From IMG/VR virus record IMGVR_UViG_3300013307_000054, positions 1 to 20,654 of that record: 20,654 nucleotides of DNA; one strand, written 5' to 3'. This stretch comes from a virus. The translations under genes and the position numbers were made by a program. Numbering within the stretch: the stretch's first letter is position 1; every line of letters begins with the position of its first letter. A model generated the notes under the pieces. It ran no database searches and was not told the DNA's origin. It saw only the letters and a program-made list of their open reading frames with translations. Below, in pieces: positions 4,880-11,952 of this stretch.

Positions 4880-5977
4880 TTAGGTCAGGCCCGTGAACTT
4901 CAGGACCGCGAATGCGTTGTTCGCGTACATGAGCGGGCGGACCGAGGACTGCACCCAGGTCTGCTCCTTCCCGTTCGGGTCACGCCACGTCTCCGTGCTG
5001 AGCGGCTTCTCGACCCTCATCTCGCCGACCTGACCCTCCGCGATCGCGTAGGCGGAGCCTGCCGCGACACGGTTGGTCACGAAGATGTCGACGTCGTACG
5101 AGTCGAGGAGCGCACCCAGCTTGTCACCGTAGATGCCCTCGAGGTTGAACATTTCGTTCGGGTTCATGATCCACAGGTTGTAGTCCATGTCCATCTCTTC
5201 CTGCTCGGCGATGAGATCCGCCTTGGCGAAGTCCCGTGCCGGGAAGAGCGGCCAGTTGCTACCGCCTGCGTAGGTCGTGTTGACCGAGCCCCACGAGACG
5301 CCGGTCACCGTGCGGGCGTTCGCCGAGATGAACGCCTCCAGGATCTGGACGCCGCGCTGGTTGATCTTCCGAACGATGGTGTTGCTGAGCTGCCGCATGG
5401 CCTTGGTGAACTCGCTCACCAGGTTGCGGTCCCGTGCCTCGTCGAGGAAGTAGAACTTGGCGCCCCACTTCTCGACGACCGCCGCAACAGGCGCACGCCT
5501 GCTGAAGCTGACGATCGGGAACTCCGAACCCGGCTCCACACGCTCGACATCACGGTCGGCGTACAGATCCGGGTACACGACGACGTCGTAGATGACAGCG
5601 CCACCCGTCACCCCACCGGCCGACGCGAAAACACGGTCCACGAAGAACCGCTGACGCGTCAGATCGAGGACCATCGGCGTGATGACCCTGGTGGGCTGCT
5701 GGAGAGCGATGTCGATCGTGAACGTCGTTCCCGAGATCGTCGGCGCAGCCAACGGATTGATCACAGCGCCAGGGTACGGCGCAGCGGCAACCGGCGGGTC
5801 TCCGGCAGGCTCGAAGCGCGCAGCGGCAAAACCGTCTGCGGACTTGAGGCCCATCCGTGCGAACTCCGACCGAAGGAGCTCGGGATCGGCGCGACCGACC
5901 GCGACCATCTCTGCCAACGTCGGTAGCTCGATGTTGACGCGAGGGCCGTGGTCCATCGCGAGTGCTCTGTTTCTCAT
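4880..5977 (-). CDS. Major capsid protein
   Basis: The protein has 365 residues. It is called as the major capsid protein from its size, its place after protease/scaffold and decoration genes, and its sequence style. A helical N-terminus (ELPTLAEMVAVGRADPELLR) is followed by an extended region, FSRRAPVAAVVEKWGAKFYF and a helix EFTKAMRQLSNTIVRKINQR. A C-terminal segment (LWIMNPNEMFNLEGIYGDKL ... VDIFVTNRVAAGSAYAIAEG ... NNAFAVLKFTGLT) is typical of HK97-fold capsid P- and A-domains. The start is decided by a very strong site, AAGGGAGGAGGG, just before the ATG at 5977. A longer in-frame reading upstream would overlap the decoration gene and is rejected. The N-terminal ~50 residues could be a processed delta-like region, but no cleavage site is evident. 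Confidence 0.85.
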   Translation of the reverse strand: MRNRALAMDHGPRVNIELPTLAEMVAVGRADPELLRSEFARMGLKSADGFAAARFEPAGDPPVAAAPYPGAVINPLAAPTISGTTFTIDIALQQPTRVITPMVLDLTRQRFFVDRVFASAGGVTGGAVIYDVVVYPDLYADRDVERVEPGSEFPIVSFSRRAPVAAVVEKWGAKFYFLDEARDRNLVSEFTKAMRQLSNTIVRKINQRGVQILEAFISANARTVTGVSWGSVNTTYAGGSNWPLFPARDFAKADLIAEQEEMDMDYNLWIMNPNEMFNLEGIYGDKLGALLDSYDVDIFVTNRVAAGSAYAIAEGQVGEMRVEKPLSTETWRDPNGKEQTWVQSSVRPLMYANNAFAVLKFTGLT

Positions 5978-5987
5978 CCCTCCTCCC

Positions 5988-6425
5988 TTAGTAGAGTTCG
6001 ATCTCGAGGTCGAGACCTGTGCCCGCAACAGCCGGACCCACGTTTCGACCCACCTTGACGCCGGCAGCGAACGGGATGACTGCTCCCGTTGCGTCGACCT
6101 GGACTTCCGCGCCGGCACCAACTGCTGCGCCGGACGTGACGGGCACGATGGTTCCCTGCCCGCTGATGACGGGGACCTTGCCGTTGGCGACCTGGTCCCA
6201 CATGGCGACGCCTTCGACCGCCGCACCCGCTGCAGGCGGACCCGCAACGACGTAGTCGGAGCCGTCGTTCGTCGCCAACGGATCTGGAGCCAGACCCGCC
6301 AGACCGCCGGACTGACGCCCGGTGATCACGCCGACGAACTTCTTGCCGGTCACACCAGCGGTGCAGTGGACCGTGATGACCCGCGTGTAGGCAGCGGACT
6401 TGAGCGGAATGCACTCGTTGTTCAT
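5988..6425 (-). CDS. Capsid decoration / head-stabilising protein
   Basis: The protein has 145 residues, almost entirely beta-rich. It begins MNNECIPLKSAAYTRVITVH and continues with Gly/Ala/Val-rich repeats of the type AGVTGKKFVGVITG, GKVPVISGQGTIVPVTSG, AAVGAGAEVQVDATGAV and PAVAGTGLDLEIELY. This pattern (a barrel of short strands linked by AG turns) is typical of DUF2190-like or lambda gpD-like decoration proteins, which bind the expanded capsid surface and stabilise it. The gene overlaps the end of the portal-protease-scaffold gene by ATGA. It lies ten bases before the capsid start, the usual order scaffold, decoration, capsid. It is likely co-expressed at high level with the capsid. Confidence 0.75.
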   Translation of the reverse strand: MNNECIPLKSAAYTRVITVHCTAGVTGKKFVGVITGRQSGGLAGLAPDPLATNDGSDYVVAGPPAAGAAVEGVAMWDQVANGKVPVISGQGTIVPVTSGAAVGAGAEVQVDATGAVIPFAAGVKVGRNVGPAVAGTGLDLEIELY

Positions 6426-9400
6426 GCCCGCAGACCTCCACGACGGTACTTCCCATCCGAGGAGATCCTCGAATGGCGCGGCAGATCACCACCAGCTGCG
6501 GCGGCGACGGGAGCATTGCCCCTCGTCTCCGGGAACAGCTGATGGGTCCAGCCCATGATCGTGTCCTCTTCGATCTCCTGATCGCTGAGGGTCTCGACCG
6601 AGTGGGCATGTCCCCGCTCCTGCACCGGGACAATCCCCGGCTGCAAGGCTGCGAGGGCTTGCGCCCCACCCTCGGGGTCGCTGGCCATGTACTGCAACCA
6701 GTGATCCCGGCGAGCCGGTGGGATGCGTCCGTCGCCGATGGCGGCAGACACGAGCGTCTCGCGCTCGTTCGCGGCGGTCCGATCTGCGAGGCTGATCGCC
6801 GTCTGCGCACCACGGCGCAGTTCGGCAAGTGTTGCCTCGTCGATGGCCACCACACCCGGAGGCAACGACGCCGCTACTGCGGTGCGCTCCCCCGGCTCCG
6901 GCGTTGGGGCAGGCGGATCGGCCGGAGGATCTGCGGCCGGAGGATCCGCAGGCGGATCCGCTGCGGGCGGATCTGCTGGCGGGTCGGCCGGAGGATCCTG
7001 TGCCTCCGCTGCCTCGTTCAGCGCACGGAGGGTGTCCCGGACTTGGTCGTCGGAAGCGTCCTCCGACAAGCCCAGGCGCTGACGGATCTGCTTGGGATCC
7101 ATTGCACCTCCTGATGCGGTTGTCGGGAGGACGCTTGCCTCCCGGTCGGACCAACTAGCCAAGACCTCACGGCCATCGGCCAGCGATGCTGCGACATGCT
7201 CTGCCGCAACCTTGAGCACATCCACGGGCACAGCGTCCATGTCCGGGATGTAGTCGATACGCACCGGCATCGGTTCACCGAACGACACGTTGCCCTTGTC
7301 GTCCGATCCGAACGCCAGCTTGTACAACTTTCCACTGTCGTCGTCCTCGACCACGAGCTCGTTGGGGTCTGTCAGCGCAGCCTGGATCCACCACCATCTG
7401 GTGTCTTCACCATCACCGAACTGAGCGTAGAACGCCCGACGGATGTCGTCGAGGTTCGCCGAGGCGGAGGTCTTCCTGCCGAACAACTTCATCGGATCAC
7501 CTCCGGTTGATTTGGCCGCCGCTACGACGGCCTCGACGATCTCGTCGTCGATGACTACGTCCTTGGGTACTTGGTTTGTGTAATACTGAGGAAGATCCTC
7601 AAGCACTGTGACGCCAGGCCACTGAACGCCCAACAGCGAACAGGCAGACAGTACGAAGCGCCACTTCTTCCCCGCCTGGCTCTGTACATTGCTCCACCCC
7701 TCGATGCTGCGTGAGGGGTAGGCATAAGGCAAGATGGGCGCCAACCAACCAGGGACACCCTGGTAGTCAGCATAGACCGTCATGCCGTTGTCGGAGAGCC
7801 GTAGGTTCTTCGCCATGCCGAAGTTAGGCGTAGCGTCGAACTCTGGATCGTTGAAGCGTGGATCAATATGACCCAGCTTCAGGCGTGGGCTGGGAATGCT
7901 GTGATCCTCGTTCGCGGCTACCACCGCGTCACGCAGATCTTCAGGCGTGAATGTTCTTGGGCCGGTGCTGAGATTGTACTCGATCCCAGCATGAAGGATC
8001 TCAACATTCGGAACCGTCACGACCGCAGGACCACTGGCCATGACGTCTGGATCAAGTGCGGGATCTTCCGGCGGAGGGAGCACCCTACCTTCCGATCCCG
8101 CATCTGCAGACGCCCTCGTCGGAGTAGCCGGTGCTGTCTGCTGATGGCCCGGAACGTTCGGCGAGTTGCCTGTTCCGGGCTGCTCAGAGAGCTCCTCCTG
8201 CGGATTGGTCTTGTTCAGCGGTGGCTGATATGGACCGCCAGGAGTGATCTCAGGACGCGGCTCAGTCTTCGTGGGCATCAGCTTGCGGTAGCGGACCCAA
8301 TTCTCCGTTTCGTCGTCCATAGTGATGACACCTTGATGCACAAGCATACCTAGCTCTTCAGAGCCCAGAGCATCTTCGGTGCTGCGCTCCCAGGTGAGGC
8401 GCGGCGTGAGCTCCTCATCTTCACCGTAGTTCCAGTCGACGATGTCTTCGATGACGTGCTCGGTCATCACATCGCAGTACCACTGCGCGATGTGCCGCTG
8501 CCCCACCAGGAAGAAGTCCTCAAAGGTTTCGCTGAGTGCATACGAGCCTACATGACTTCCTCCTTGTGCCAGGTTGACTAGTTGCAGAAGGAAGCGGCGC
8601 GCCATCGACTCGTCCAAGCGCTTGATTGTCCGGTCGATATCGCTGCCTGATCCCTTCGCGATCTGCACCTTGGTGCCGAACGGCACAGCCAGCCCTGAGT
8701 TCTCACCGATGCGGAACTGTTGCATCAGGCTGTTGAGATTCTCGAGCTCGTCAGAAGTCATGTCCTGTGCGCCCTCGGCGTACGGGACACCACCACTGCG
8801 CTCATGATTGATCGCCTCAATCCTGAGGTCGCGATCTTTGATGATCCAGTCGCGGTAGCAGTCGCGCATCATGCTGCGTCCCGTCCACGACATCCCTTCG
8901 GCCTGGAATACGAATGGCACCAGGTTGTCAACGGGAATCTCTGGTCCCTGCCAGTAGCCAGCAGCAGGCGTGTTCTGCTGGAAGTTCCAGCCAACAGGAG
9001 CCCACTGCATGACGCTGACGAGCTCACCAGAGTCGTTGACGTTGATCTGGCGGATCGTTTGCGGCATGCGAGGCGCTAGCTTCCGGAGACGCCACTTCCC
9101 GTCAACGATCTGTCCGACCTGTTCGAAGTACATATGCCCGTAGATCACGGACAGCATGGCCTGTGTGATGAAGCGGCTGTGAGAGAACCTGCCCTTCATA
9201 CGGCCGACAGACTCGGAGTCCTTACCCATGACGGGCAGATTGAGGTCTTCGCTGATCTCCTTCACCAGCGAGTCCTTGGCACCGTTCGGATCGATGACGA
9301 ACCGCAGCTGACAGATGCCCCACATGACGGCGGTAATGAGGCCTGCCAGCTGCGAGTCCGTCCTCATCTGGTCCAGCAGTCGGACGTTCAGAGGCCAGCG

Positions 9401-9583
9401 CAACTCGGGAACGAACTCCCATTCGTCCACGTACATGCGCCATGGACCACCGGCTCCCGCGAGCGGGTACGGTGAGCCGACGACACCCCAGCCTCCCAAA
9501 CCGAGATCGGGCACGCCGAGCTCAGTCGTAGGTGCGCGGACACCTTGGCGGGTAGTGACTCTGGGACGTCCGACCTGAGCCAT
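6422..9583 (-). CDS. Portal-protease-scaffold fusion protein
   Basis: This single frame of 1053 residues appears to join three head-assembly functions. Residues 30-440 match the style of Mu gp29/DUF935-like portals (RWPLNVRLLDQMRTDSQLAG, SVIYGHMYFEQVGQ, KLAPRMPQTI, FQAEGMSWTGRSMMRDCY, RRFLLQLVNLAQGG). A Pro-rich linker spans 440-520. Residues 525-670 resemble the Mu I-type maturation protease (FTPEDLRDAVVAAN, SPRLKLGHIDPRF, YAYPSRSIEGW), with His572 and Ser624 or Ser626 as possible catalytic residues. Residues 698-785 form a domain often attached to such proteases (RWWWIQAALTDPNELVVEDD). The rest is scaffold-like, with DPPADPPAA repeats at 863-890 and helices. The start overlaps the previous stop (TAATG). 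Domain identity is from family knowledge; the catalytic residues are inferred. Confidence 0.85.
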   Translation of the reverse strand: MAQVGRPRVTTRQGVRAPTTELGVPDLGLGGWGVVGSPYPLAGAGGPWRMYVDEWEFVPELRWPLNVRLLDQMRTDSQLAGLITAVMWGICQLRFVIDPNGAKDSLVKEISEDLNLPVMGKDSESVGRMKGRFSHSRFITQAMLSVIYGHMYFEQVGQIVDGKWRLRKLAPRMPQTIRQINVNDSGELVSVMQWAPVGWNFQQNTPAAGYWQGPEIPVDNLVPFVFQAEGMSWTGRSMMRDCYRDWIIKDRDLRIEAINHERSGGVPYAEGAQDMTSDELENLNSLMQQFRIGENSGLAVPFGTKVQIAKGSGSDIDRTIKRLDESMARRFLLQLVNLAQGGSHVGSYALSETFEDFFLVGQRHIAQWYCDVMTEHVIEDIVDWNYGEDEELTPRLTWERSTEDALGSEELGMLVHQGVITMDDETENWVRYRKLMPTKTEPRPEITPGGPYQPPLNKTNPQEELSEQPGTGNSPNVPGHQQTAPATPTRASADAGSEGRVLPPPEDPALDPDVMASGPAVVTVPNVEILHAGIEYNLSTGPRTFTPEDLRDAVVAANEDHSIPSPRLKLGHIDPRFNDPEFDATPNFGMAKNLRLSDNGMTVYADYQGVPGWLAPILPYAYPSRSIEGWSNVQSQAGKKWRFVLSACSLLGVQWPGVTVLEDLPQYYTNQVPKDVVIDDEIVEAVVAAAKSTGGDPMKLFGRKTSASANLDDIRRAFYAQFGDGEDTRWWWIQAALTDPNELVVEDDDSGKLYKLAFGSDDKGNVSFGEPMPVRIDYIPDMDAVPVDVLKVAAEHVAASLADGREVLASWSDREASVLPTTASGGAMDPKQIRQRLGLSEDASDDQVRDTLRALNEAAEAQDPPADPPADPPAADPPADPPAADPPADPPAPTPEPGERTAVAASLPPGVVAIDEATLAELRRGAQTAISLADRTAANERETLVSAAIGDGRIPPARRDHWLQYMASDPEGGAQALAALQPGIVPVQERGHAHSVETLSDQEIEEDTIMGWTHQLFPETRGNAPVAAAAGGDLPRHSRISSDGKYRRGGLRA
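7100..7112 (-). promoter_or_regulatory. Internal ribosome-binding site and in-frame ATG (codon 828)
   Basis: The minus strand reads AGGAGGTGCA then ATG, in frame with the fusion gene. It would yield a 226-residue protein beginning MDPKQIRQRLGLSEDASDDQ, which consists only of the helical, Pro-repeat scaffold-like part. The spacing of four bases equals that used by another gene here (GGGAGGCACC then ATG at 18348). In phage Mu the scaffold gene Z is nested in frame at the end of protease gene I, and this site would do the same. Confidence 0.65.
7490..7504 (-). promoter_or_regulatory. Internal ribosome-binding site and in-frame ATG (codon 698)
   Basis: On the minus strand the sequence reads GGAGGTGATCCG then ATG, an almost perfect match to the anti-Shine-Dalgarno sequence at ideal spacing. 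The ATG is in frame with the fusion gene and would give a 356-residue product beginning MKLFGRKTSASANLDD, without the portal and the protease core. Such a site inside a coding region is unlikely to arise by codon choice alone, since it encodes the run TGGDPM. Confidence 0.65.
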
Positions 9584-10293
9584 TAGGCTCGGACCAGAAT
9601 GGTTGAGTCTCCGCTATCCTCCAGCAGTTGCTGAAGAGTGGAGACGGTCATGTGCATCCTCCCACGCACACCGTATCCGAGGCCCCAGGAGTTGCGACAC
9701 TCCACGATTGACTGGGCCAGGTCGGTCTCGAGATAGAAACCGTCGGAGACGATCTGGTGTCCGCCACGGATCTGACCGGCGATCTTGATCAAGCCCGAAG
9801 CGTCTGGGTCATCGAACCCTTCGTACCAGGCGATGCCGAGGCTGAGAGGGCCGTGCATGAGAGCCTGCAGCGCGGCGTCGATGGAGAAGGTGTGGCGGTA
9901 GCTTCCGCAGTATCCCTTCTCCACCGCTGCCTTGGCAGCAGCAATGCCCGATGAGCCGGTGTCGTCTGGCGGGTACTCGCCCGGGAATCCGTCGAGCACC
10001 GTTGCGCGCTCGTACAGAGCGAGGGCGTCTGCCTCGACCAGCGGGTTGCGCATGTCGATCTTGGGCTGGTCGAGGGGTCGTGTGTTGACTGCGCCGGCAG
10101 TTGCGTTGCCGGTGCACGAGCCGAGTTGGCCCTGATCGAGGATGCCTCCGTAGTGACCGTGGTACGTCGTATGCAACTCGACGGTCGCAGCCTCGAATGG
10201 ATAGTTCTTCGAGCGCGGGTCATGCTCGATGTGACGTCCGAGGCGCTTGCCCTCGATGACGTGCTCTTCGATTCGCTCGAGACGGACGTTCAC
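9583..10293 (-). CDS. Papain-like cysteine protease
   Basis: The protein has 236 residues and carries the C1A (papain) signature in order. Gln54 and Cys60 lie in DQGQLGSCTGNATAGA, His179 in GGHQIVSDGFY, and Asn201 in CRNSWGLGYGVRGRMHM. The N-terminal residues 1-45 are charged (EEHVIEGKRLGRHIEHDPRS) and could be a pro-region or a docking part. There is no signal peptide, so it should act in the cytoplasm or within the particle. It starts with GTG overlapping the stop of a tiny basic gene (GTGA) and ends overlapping the portal gene start. It lies between holin and portal, so roles in capsid maturation, protein processing, or release are all possible. The catalytic set is complete, so activity is likely; the substrate is unknown. 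Confidence 0.85.
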   Translation of the reverse strand: MNVRLERIEEHVIEGKRLGRHIEHDPRSKNYPFEAATVELHTTYHGHYGGILDQGQLGSCTGNATAGAVNTRPLDQPKIDMRNPLVEADALALYERATVLDGFPGEYPPDDTGSSGIAAAKAAVEKGYCGSYRHTFSIDAALQALMHGPLSLGIAWYEGFDDPDASGLIKIAGQIRGGHQIVSDGFYLETDLAQSIVECRNSWGLGYGVRGRMHMTVSTLQQLLEDSGDSTILVRA

Positions 10294-10413: not shown

Positions 10414-10794
10414 CTACGGGTAGTTGGGCGACGTGACGCGCACGCCGTTGGTGACCTGGTAGATCGCGAGCAGAGCGACGAACCCTGCGCTGATTGCTCC
10501 GATGAGCTCTCCCTGCGTGACGACGCTGTCGGCGTAAGCAGTGATGAGAGCCGTCACGAATGCACCGGCGAAGGCAGAGAACGCCTTGATGATGCCGCCG
10601 GCAATGCCCGGTACGTTCTCGCACCACCAGGTGAATCCGCCCGATGCGAGGACAGCGCCGATGATCTTGAGCCAGTCGTACGTGCCGAGGTGGCCCAAGT
10701 TCTGCTGTGGGCTGGTGCCGAGCGCAGTGACGAGTGCTGTGGCAATCGCGATGAGAAGAGCAAGAACTGCCTTCGCGTACTTTCCTGAGAGCAT
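10414..10794 (-). CDS. Holin
   Basis: The protein has 126 residues with about four hydrophobic segments: 8-26 (AVLALLIAIATALVTALG), 41-57 (WLKIIGAVLASGGFTWW), 63-88 (GIAGGIIKAFSAFAGAFVTA) and 95-114 (GELIGAISAGFVALLAIYQV). A small multi-span membrane protein beside endolysin genes is the usual mark of a holin, which opens the inner membrane to time lysis. The start at 10794 is fixed by AAGGAGGGAGTA just upstream. A longer reading from 10875 overlaps the endolysin and lacks this site. It follows the M15-type endolysin by 16 bases. Family-level assignment is by topology and neighbours, as holins share little sequence. Confidence 0.85.
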   Translation of the reverse strand: MLSGKYAKAVLALLIAIATALVTALGTSPQQNLGHLGTYDWLKIIGAVLASGGFTWWCENVPGIAGGIIKAFSAFAGAFVTALITAYADSVVTQGELIGAISAGFVALLAIYQVTNGVRVTSPNYP

Positions 10795-10810
10795 TACTCC
10801 CTCCTTGTTG

Positions 10811-11533
10811 TCATTTGCCGACCCAGAGTCGGCGCGGCGGTTCGGTCCGAAGATTGACGTGATGAAGTTCTGCACCGTACCCGTAGGGGCGATGCGCGTT
10901 GATGCCCCTGCTCGCTAGGTGCCGGATGAACGCATCGACGTGACCGTCGTCGATGTCCATGCCGCACTGCCACCATTCGAGGTGTCGCCCCGACGGACCT
11001 GGGTAAGCGTAGCCGTCGGAGCGTAGCTCGTGCGTACTGGTGCCAGGACGGTTGGCGGGTGCGTAGCCGGGCCAACCATGCACATAGCCGTACCAAAGCT
11101 GGTACTGCGTGCGCTTACCGTGTTTGTGAAGGATGGCCACGCCCTGAGGATCCTGTCCGCGATAGCAAGAGAAGATCGTCGCTCCGACAGCATGAAGGCT
11201 TGGCAAGATCACCACGGCCAGCTGCCGAGGAACGGCAGCGCCCTGCACGTCAACGTAACGCGGCAGGTTACGCTTTGCCATCTTGTAGATCATCGTGGCG
11301 TAGCGGTTGAAGTGAGTACGCAAGTGCTTGTGCGTCTCCTCGCCGTAGACGCCATCATCCTTCAGACCAACAGAATGCTGGTAGATCTTGAGTTGGTCGC
11401 GAAGATGCGACGTGAAGAGGCGTCCAAGCTTGACGTCTCTGCCAGCGCGACGCAGACCGATGTGGACGGCAGCAACATCGAGACCGTGTGACCCGACGCG
11501 AAGGACTCGCCCGTTGAAGGGAACGTCGCTCAC
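10811..11533 (-). CDS. Endolysin: peptidoglycan-binding domain plus M15-type peptidase
   Basis: The protein has 240 residues. Residues 8-75 form a PG_binding_1-type domain (LRVGSHGLDVAAVHIGLRRA, QLKIYQHSVGLKDDGVYGEE). The C-terminal half resembles zinc peptidases of the M15/VanY kind: STHELRSDGYAY (His168), WQCGMDIDD (Asp193 or Asp195) and AELHHVNLR (His224 and His225) give a plausible His-Asp-His metal site. It would cut peptide cross-links or stem peptides in the host cell wall. It starts with GTG overlapping the stop of the lysozyme-like gene (GTGA), so the two are translationally coupled, and the holin follows. There is no signal peptide, so export depends on the holin. The exact bond cut is not readable from sequence. 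Confidence 0.85.
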   Translation of the reverse strand: MSDVPFNGRVLRVGSHGLDVAAVHIGLRRAGRDVKLGRLFTSHLRDQLKIYQHSVGLKDDGVYGEETHKHLRTHFNRYATMIYKMAKRNLPRYVDVQGAAVPRQLAVVILPSLHAVGATIFSCYRGQDPQGVAILHKHGKRTQYQLWYGYVHGWPGYAPANRPGTSTHELRSDGYAYPGPSGRHLEWWQCGMDIDDGHVDAFIRHLASRGINAHRPYGYGAELHHVNLRTEPPRRLWVGK

Positions 11534-11952
11534 TCGATCTCCTTCAAGAGAGTCAGCATGAGCGTCGGATTCGTTCCCCAGTGCTGCTTGATCGTGGAAC
11601 CGTACTTATCGACCAACTCTTCAGCCGTGGTGCCGTTGGCCTTTGCGTGACGCAAGCCGTAGAGGAAGTCACCCCACAGCGGCTGCTGGAGGGTGTCAAC
11701 CAGCGCAACGATGCCCTGCCACGGATGGTTGTAGTTGCACACTCCCACCTCGTTGTAGTCAGGCGAGGACTGCCAATCGCCGTGAGCCTGAGAATGGATG
11801 TGGTTGACGGTGTTGAGCGGGTTCCAGCGCGCATTCCCGCCCTCCGCGCGCTGCATAGCCGTGAAGAATCGCACGATCTCGTGATCGAGCGGAATCTCGA
11901 GCATCGCGCTGCCCCGCTCAATCCATCTCTCTGGTAGGTGCGTCTGTGTCAT
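11530..11952 (-). CDS. Lysozyme / transglycosylase-like lysis protein
   Basis: The protein has 140 residues. The core reads FFTAMQRAEGGNARWNPLNT and later PDYNEVGVCNYNHPWQGI. This matches a pattern common in actinobacterial phage and host proteins of the lysozyme-like fold, in which the Glu of AEGG (Glu37) is the probable acid catalyst and the NPLNT and YN-VGV-NY motifs shape the glycan cleft. It would cleave the sugar backbone, complementing the peptidase encoded next. The start has a strong site (AAGGAGGGAGC before ATG), nine bases from the large terminase stop, and the gene ends overlapping the peptidase gene. No signal peptide is seen. The fold assignment is from motif recognition. Confidence 0.75.
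   Translation of the reverse strand: MTQTHLPERWIERGSAMLEIPLDHEIVRFFTAMQRAEGGNARWNPLNTVNHIHSQAHGDWQSSPDYNEVGVCNYNHPWQGIVALVDTLQQPLWGDFLYGLRHAKANGTTAEELVDKYGSTIKQHWGTNPTLMLTLLKEIE

Follow-up and report, generated by a model that had tools for sequence, protein, structure and literature searches.

A portal-protease-scaffold fusion gene with two conserved internal start sites in an uncultivated phage group

A portal gene fused to a Mu I/Z-type protease-scaffold gene

A 20.7-kb record of an uncultivated virus (the window, meaning the whole stretch of DNA that we analyzed) carries a single 1,053-codon gene that encodes, in one chain, a portal, a linker, a head maturation protease, a middle domain, and a scaffold (6422..9583; this and all other features of the window given below lie on the minus strand). 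Judged by sequence comparison, it is a genuine fusion of a portal gene with a Mu I/Z-type protease-scaffold gene, with recognizable domains, conserved internal starts, and a separate protease start that has been lost. The phages with this fusion are an uncultured group and probably actinobacterial; to judge from their relatives, soil actinobacteria are likely hosts.

The head genes of the window are all encoded on the minus strand. The terminase genes (small, then large) come first, followed by a lysis-like cluster and a papain-like peptidase gene; next is the fused gene, and after it come the genes for a small head protein and the major capsid protein. The fused gene starts with an ATG at 9583..9581, overlapping the stop codon of the preceding gene as TAATG, and its own stop codon ends at 6422. 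The initial annotation had described this region as one frame containing portal, Mu I-like protease, and scaffold regions in that order, and domain searches against Pfam and PHROGs bore this out, with a full portal domain at residues 68 to 424 and a head maturation protease/scaffold match at residues 519 to 1012.

The portal domain (8312..9382) belongs to the Mu/phage portal family, matching PHROG 113 (E = 1.3e-50) and Portal_Mu (PF06074, E = 9.7e-36; 124.2 bits against a curated cutoff of 23.9, covering positions 2 to 324 of the 336 in the profile). A profile of the portal alignment also matched solved portal structures, with a best E value of 3.7e-30. Joining of the portal to a neighboring head gene is known from the portal-MuF fusions of Microbacterium and Arthrobacter phages (PMC7302621, PMC5513430), but there the partner is MuF and here it is the protease-scaffold; no family match to a MuF domain was found after the portal in Pfam or PHROGs at E values up to 1. 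We found no portal-protease fusion in the open-access literature searched, the coverage of which is incomplete, and we make no claim of priority. Unusually long portal ORFs are also present in three distant relatives (L141:3695-6602, L117:3877-5977, and L053:245-2465) and are possibly portal-MuF fusions.

The head maturation protease domain comprises residues 521 to 693 (7505..8023). PHROG 3894, a head maturation protease family, matched residues 519 to 1012 at an E value of 4.9e-87, and Mu-like_Pro (PF10123) matched residues 813 to 1015 with 37.8 bits against a cutoff of 25.2, covering only positions 138 to 326 of the profile. H572 and S626 are unchanged in all 32 aligned sequences and, on this conservation, are likely the catalytic residues; the 54-residue gap between them is similar to that between the catalytic His and Ser of gp21. 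An AlphaFold model of residues 521 to 831, built from 32 relatives, reached a pLDDT of 81.7, and its best protease matches, with modest Z scores, were T4 gp21 and herpesvirus proteases (5jbl, 5.9; 4v08, 5.7; VIA-align). With Foldseek alone, no PDB entry matched this model significantly; among viral models, it matched those of prohead proteases and of scaffolding proteins. Searching PDB sequences with the protease profile gave no hit. The middle domain, at about residues 708 to 780 (7244..7462), has an alpha/beta fold in the model that is weakly PH-like. Within the downstream region, an imperfect tandem repeat (6908..6998) encodes a PPADPPAA stretch that varies among relatives. A model of the full 1,053-residue chain reached a pLDDT of only 41.6 and was left out of the analysis.

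Probable repeated gain or loss of the fusion among relatives

We applied a frame test to 120 loci from a wider scan, counting a locus as fused if a single frame ran through both domains without interruption. Separate genes were present at 97 loci, and the 23 fused loci came from 19 contigs, including the window. The 18 others are IMG/VR contigs from many metagenomes, which align with the window over the full length at 52 to 74% identity. Portal and protease are separate genes in the other relatives (at most 78% identity in conserved parts) and in every cultivated relative inspected, and a search of bacterial genomes with a single sequence returned no homologue.

Our initial hypothesis was that a frameshift or assembly artifact had merged two genes, as the relatives inspected first have separate, overlapping genes and one of them (L002) gave a short match at the junction in a different phase. 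We dropped it because 18 further contigs, with several distinct lineages among them, have the same fusion in frame, and we now regard a sequencing or assembly error as vanishingly improbable. The initial annotation had likewise anticipated that homologues might expose such a merge; those that we examined did not.

In the gene trees, the window and L011 adjoin relatives with separate genes (L012), apart from the remaining fused lineages. Approximately unbiased (AU) tests rejected one fused clade for both the portal (p-AU = 1.2e-5) and the protease (p-AU = 2.2e-4), ruling out a single origin of the fusion, and the state changed between fused and separate at least 3 times in the portal tree and 4 times in the protease tree. 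These tests indicate multiple gains or losses of the fusion, or its spread by recombination, with gain and loss not distinguishable.

Loss of the separate protease start and a conserved linker motif

In relatives with separate genes, the protease start is preceded by a strong or moderate Shine-Dalgarno (SD) stretch (dG of -5.3 to -13.9, these scores being energies and not initiation rates), whereas in fused genomes the SD at the corresponding Met is weak or absent (0.4 to -5.0), with the single exception of L032 (-10.2). The two groups differ with a Mann-Whitney p of 0.0005, a value not corrected for relatedness. At the junction, the nearest relative with separate genes has GGAGGAGGGGTAGATGA, with a strong ribosome binding site and TAGATGA, and these are absent from the window and from fused L090, the latter having Gln at the position of the protease-start Met. 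We conclude from these comparisons that the separate protease start was lost where the genes fused.

It could be argued that the working protease still comes chiefly from another start inside the gene, close to the former boundary, at GTG codon 501 or ATG codon 515, and that the long chain is a by-product. An ATG is indeed retained there in nearly all fused genomes, the SD of L032 is good, and GTG 501 has an SD with a dG of -6.6. We nevertheless find this reading unlikely, given that the boundary ATG has no real SD in most fused genomes and is replaced altogether in L090, and that the two downstream SDs described below were retained while the boundary SD was lost.

The portal and protease domains are connected by a variable linker rich in Pro, Ala, and Thr (residues 446 to 520; 8024..8248), which differs in sequence and length between fused relatives. 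Near its end is the motif PDVMA (residues 512 to 516; 8036..8050), which fused homologues retain in the form P[DH]V[MQ]A, with P512, V514, and A516 invariant in 11 fused sequences and the rest of the linker variable. The Met of this motif has no SD in the window, nor does the motif have a ribosome binding site in most fused forms, and its conservation without one makes it a candidate processing site at which cleavage of the linker is plausible. Alternatively, the linker may stay uncut, so that portal, protease, and scaffold remain one chain of which only the C-terminal parts self-degrade. The variable sequence and length of the linker would fit that alternative, but the three invariant residues in so variable a region argue against it, as does the normal role of prohead proteases in phages such as lambda and T4, which is to degrade scaffold (PMC5155283); we consider an uncut linker possible, though doubtful. 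No single clear cleavage motif is common to the linker and the N termini of the major capsid proteins; one is clear only in L028, whose major capsid protein has PPDVMA ahead of RFEP.

Two conserved internal start sites

The initial annotation had also singled out in-frame ATGs at codons 698 and 828, each after a near-perfect SD, as starts of extra products of 356 and 226 residues. Their positions proved exact. The ATG of codon 698 (7492..7490) is preceded by GGAGGTGATCCG (7493..7504; dG, -13.8) and would begin a product consisting of the middle domain and scaffold (6422..7492), and that of codon 828 (7102..7100) is preceded by AGGAGGTGCA (7103..7112; dG, -11.2) and would begin a product consisting of the scaffold, in a position like that of Mu Z (6422..7102).

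We scanned for internal starts across 20 close relatives aligned by protein (494 columns), taking a dG of at most -9 as a strong SD. Just two columns had both a start codon and a strong SD in almost all sequences, those of codon 698 (19/20, with the SD itself at the aligned place in all 20) and codon 828 (18/19), and the next best column reached 6/20. The start codon at 698 is ATG in 12 relatives and GTG in 7, and at 828 it is always ATG. A few other coincidences of SD and start codon occur in the fused gene, in other frames, and one lone site of this kind would not impress; what is impressive in the alignment is the conservation of these two.

The SD-like stretches could be a mere by-product of a conserved Gly-Gly-Asp/Ala-Met protein sequence, and the Gly-Gly pair is itself conserved. 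The choice of codons speaks against this, since wherever the spaced Gly-Gly pair is present, its first, SD-forming codon is GGA or GGG (18/18 at 698 and 17/17 at 828), compared with 33% across all Gly codons and 4/26 for Gly-Gly pairs elsewhere. Moreover, the SD at 698 persists despite altered residues or spacing in L012, L042, and L109, and the Met/Val alternation at that codon is written as ATG/GTG. We therefore regard a protein-level by-product as very unlikely and, on the strength of this conservation, take both internal starts to be real evolutionary signals.

The two sites differ in how widely they are distributed. Site 828 is strong also in cultivated phages of Gordonia, Rhodococcus, and Corynebacterium (Mbo4, Dina, UmaThurman, Schnabeltier, and others). 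With the exception of Dina, phages outside the clade mostly have a weak site 698; nor is this site absolutely retained among fused forms, as L114 has Thr there. The Mu Z-type nesting suggested in the initial annotation is thus supported for 828, which appears from this distribution to be an old and widespread Z-like scaffold start, with the refinement that 698 appears mostly clade specific and extends the scaffold by a small middle domain.

The resemblance to Mu I (protease) and Z (scaffold) lies in a scaffold produced within the protease frame from an internal start that has an SD of its own, and in the PF10123 match, and the difference lies in the portal fused in front and in the presence of two internal starts, the first of which adds the middle domain. 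In phage lambda, too, the scaffold (Nu3) is nested in frame within the protease gene (C), but the protease is of an unrelated type and the portal (B) is separate. Nested scaffolds with an internal start have been reported for Mu and, at Val177, for Mu-like phages of Pseudomonas aeruginosa (PMC4378225). In UmaThurman, Mbo4, Dina, and Schnabeltier, the homologues of the portal and protease-scaffold genes keep this order, and several of these phages share the second of the two internal SDs and starts, but portal and protease are encoded separately. The conserved nested starts suggest that standard annotation overlooks scaffold products in many actinophage protease genes.

A proposed model for head assembly

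It is a standing question how each procapsid obtains the right few proteases and one portal, and the fused chain would hard-wire the answer: if translated as such, it would leave every portal subunit with one protease attached, with scaffold in excess. The SD of the portal start is weak in every relative whose start was identified (0.4 to -6.6), and weak initiation there would yield few full-length chains. Twelve of these would assemble into the portal ring, their protease and scaffold parts facing the procapsid interior, and the ring with its tethered parts would nucleate assembly at the portal vertex and set the number of proteases at about 12 per head. The strong internal starts would meanwhile supply a surplus of 356- and 226-residue chains, so that the two hidden starts probably yield extra scaffold-only copies. 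Weak full-length and strong internal initiation would together suit a head that is expected to require many scaffolds but few portals and proteases. Once assembly is complete, the tethered protease would digest the scaffold and probably also cut the linker, perhaps at P[DH]V[MQ]A, and so release the portal.

We infer the expression levels, ring geometry, and cleavage in this model, and we hold its core, a low-level full-length portal-protease chain with internal initiation of scaffold and a likely linker cut, with good though not full confidence. The more detailed reading, a three-tier head-assembly gene with about 12 portal-tethered proteases at the vertex, two surplus classes of scaffold, self-cleavage at the linker motif, and repeated gain or loss of the fusion, we would give an even chance. 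Protease-capsid and protease-scaffold-capsid fusions of small actinophages and PAJU2-type phages similarly have a structural protein that carries the head protease in cis, but their partner is the major capsid protein, present in hundreds of copies, and here it is the 12-copy portal. The existence of close relatives with and without the fusion offers a clean comparative test.

Neighboring genes

The start of the small head protein gene (5988..6425) overlaps the end of the fused ORF, and its product is cement/decoration-like (PHROG 673). The major capsid protein (4880..6010, a searched region that extends upstream of the true start) matched PF25209 (E = 5e-13) and PHROG 1650 (E = 3.3e-56). The protein has an N-terminal extension of ~60 to 70 residues (about 5790-5980) that is absent in cultivated relatives (match from query residue 86) and is perhaps a cleaved, scaffold-like delta domain.

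Directly before the portal, and sharing the TAATG overlap with it, is the papain-like cysteine peptidase (9583-10293; PHROG 16701, E = 4.3e-56). The lysis-like genes (10414-11952), with one weak peptidoglycan-binding match, have an unusual location between the large terminase and the portal. Elsewhere in the window, a 672-residue protein (884-2902) contains many degenerate ATSTVSG-type repeats; it has no informative family match and is probably a fiber or surface protein.
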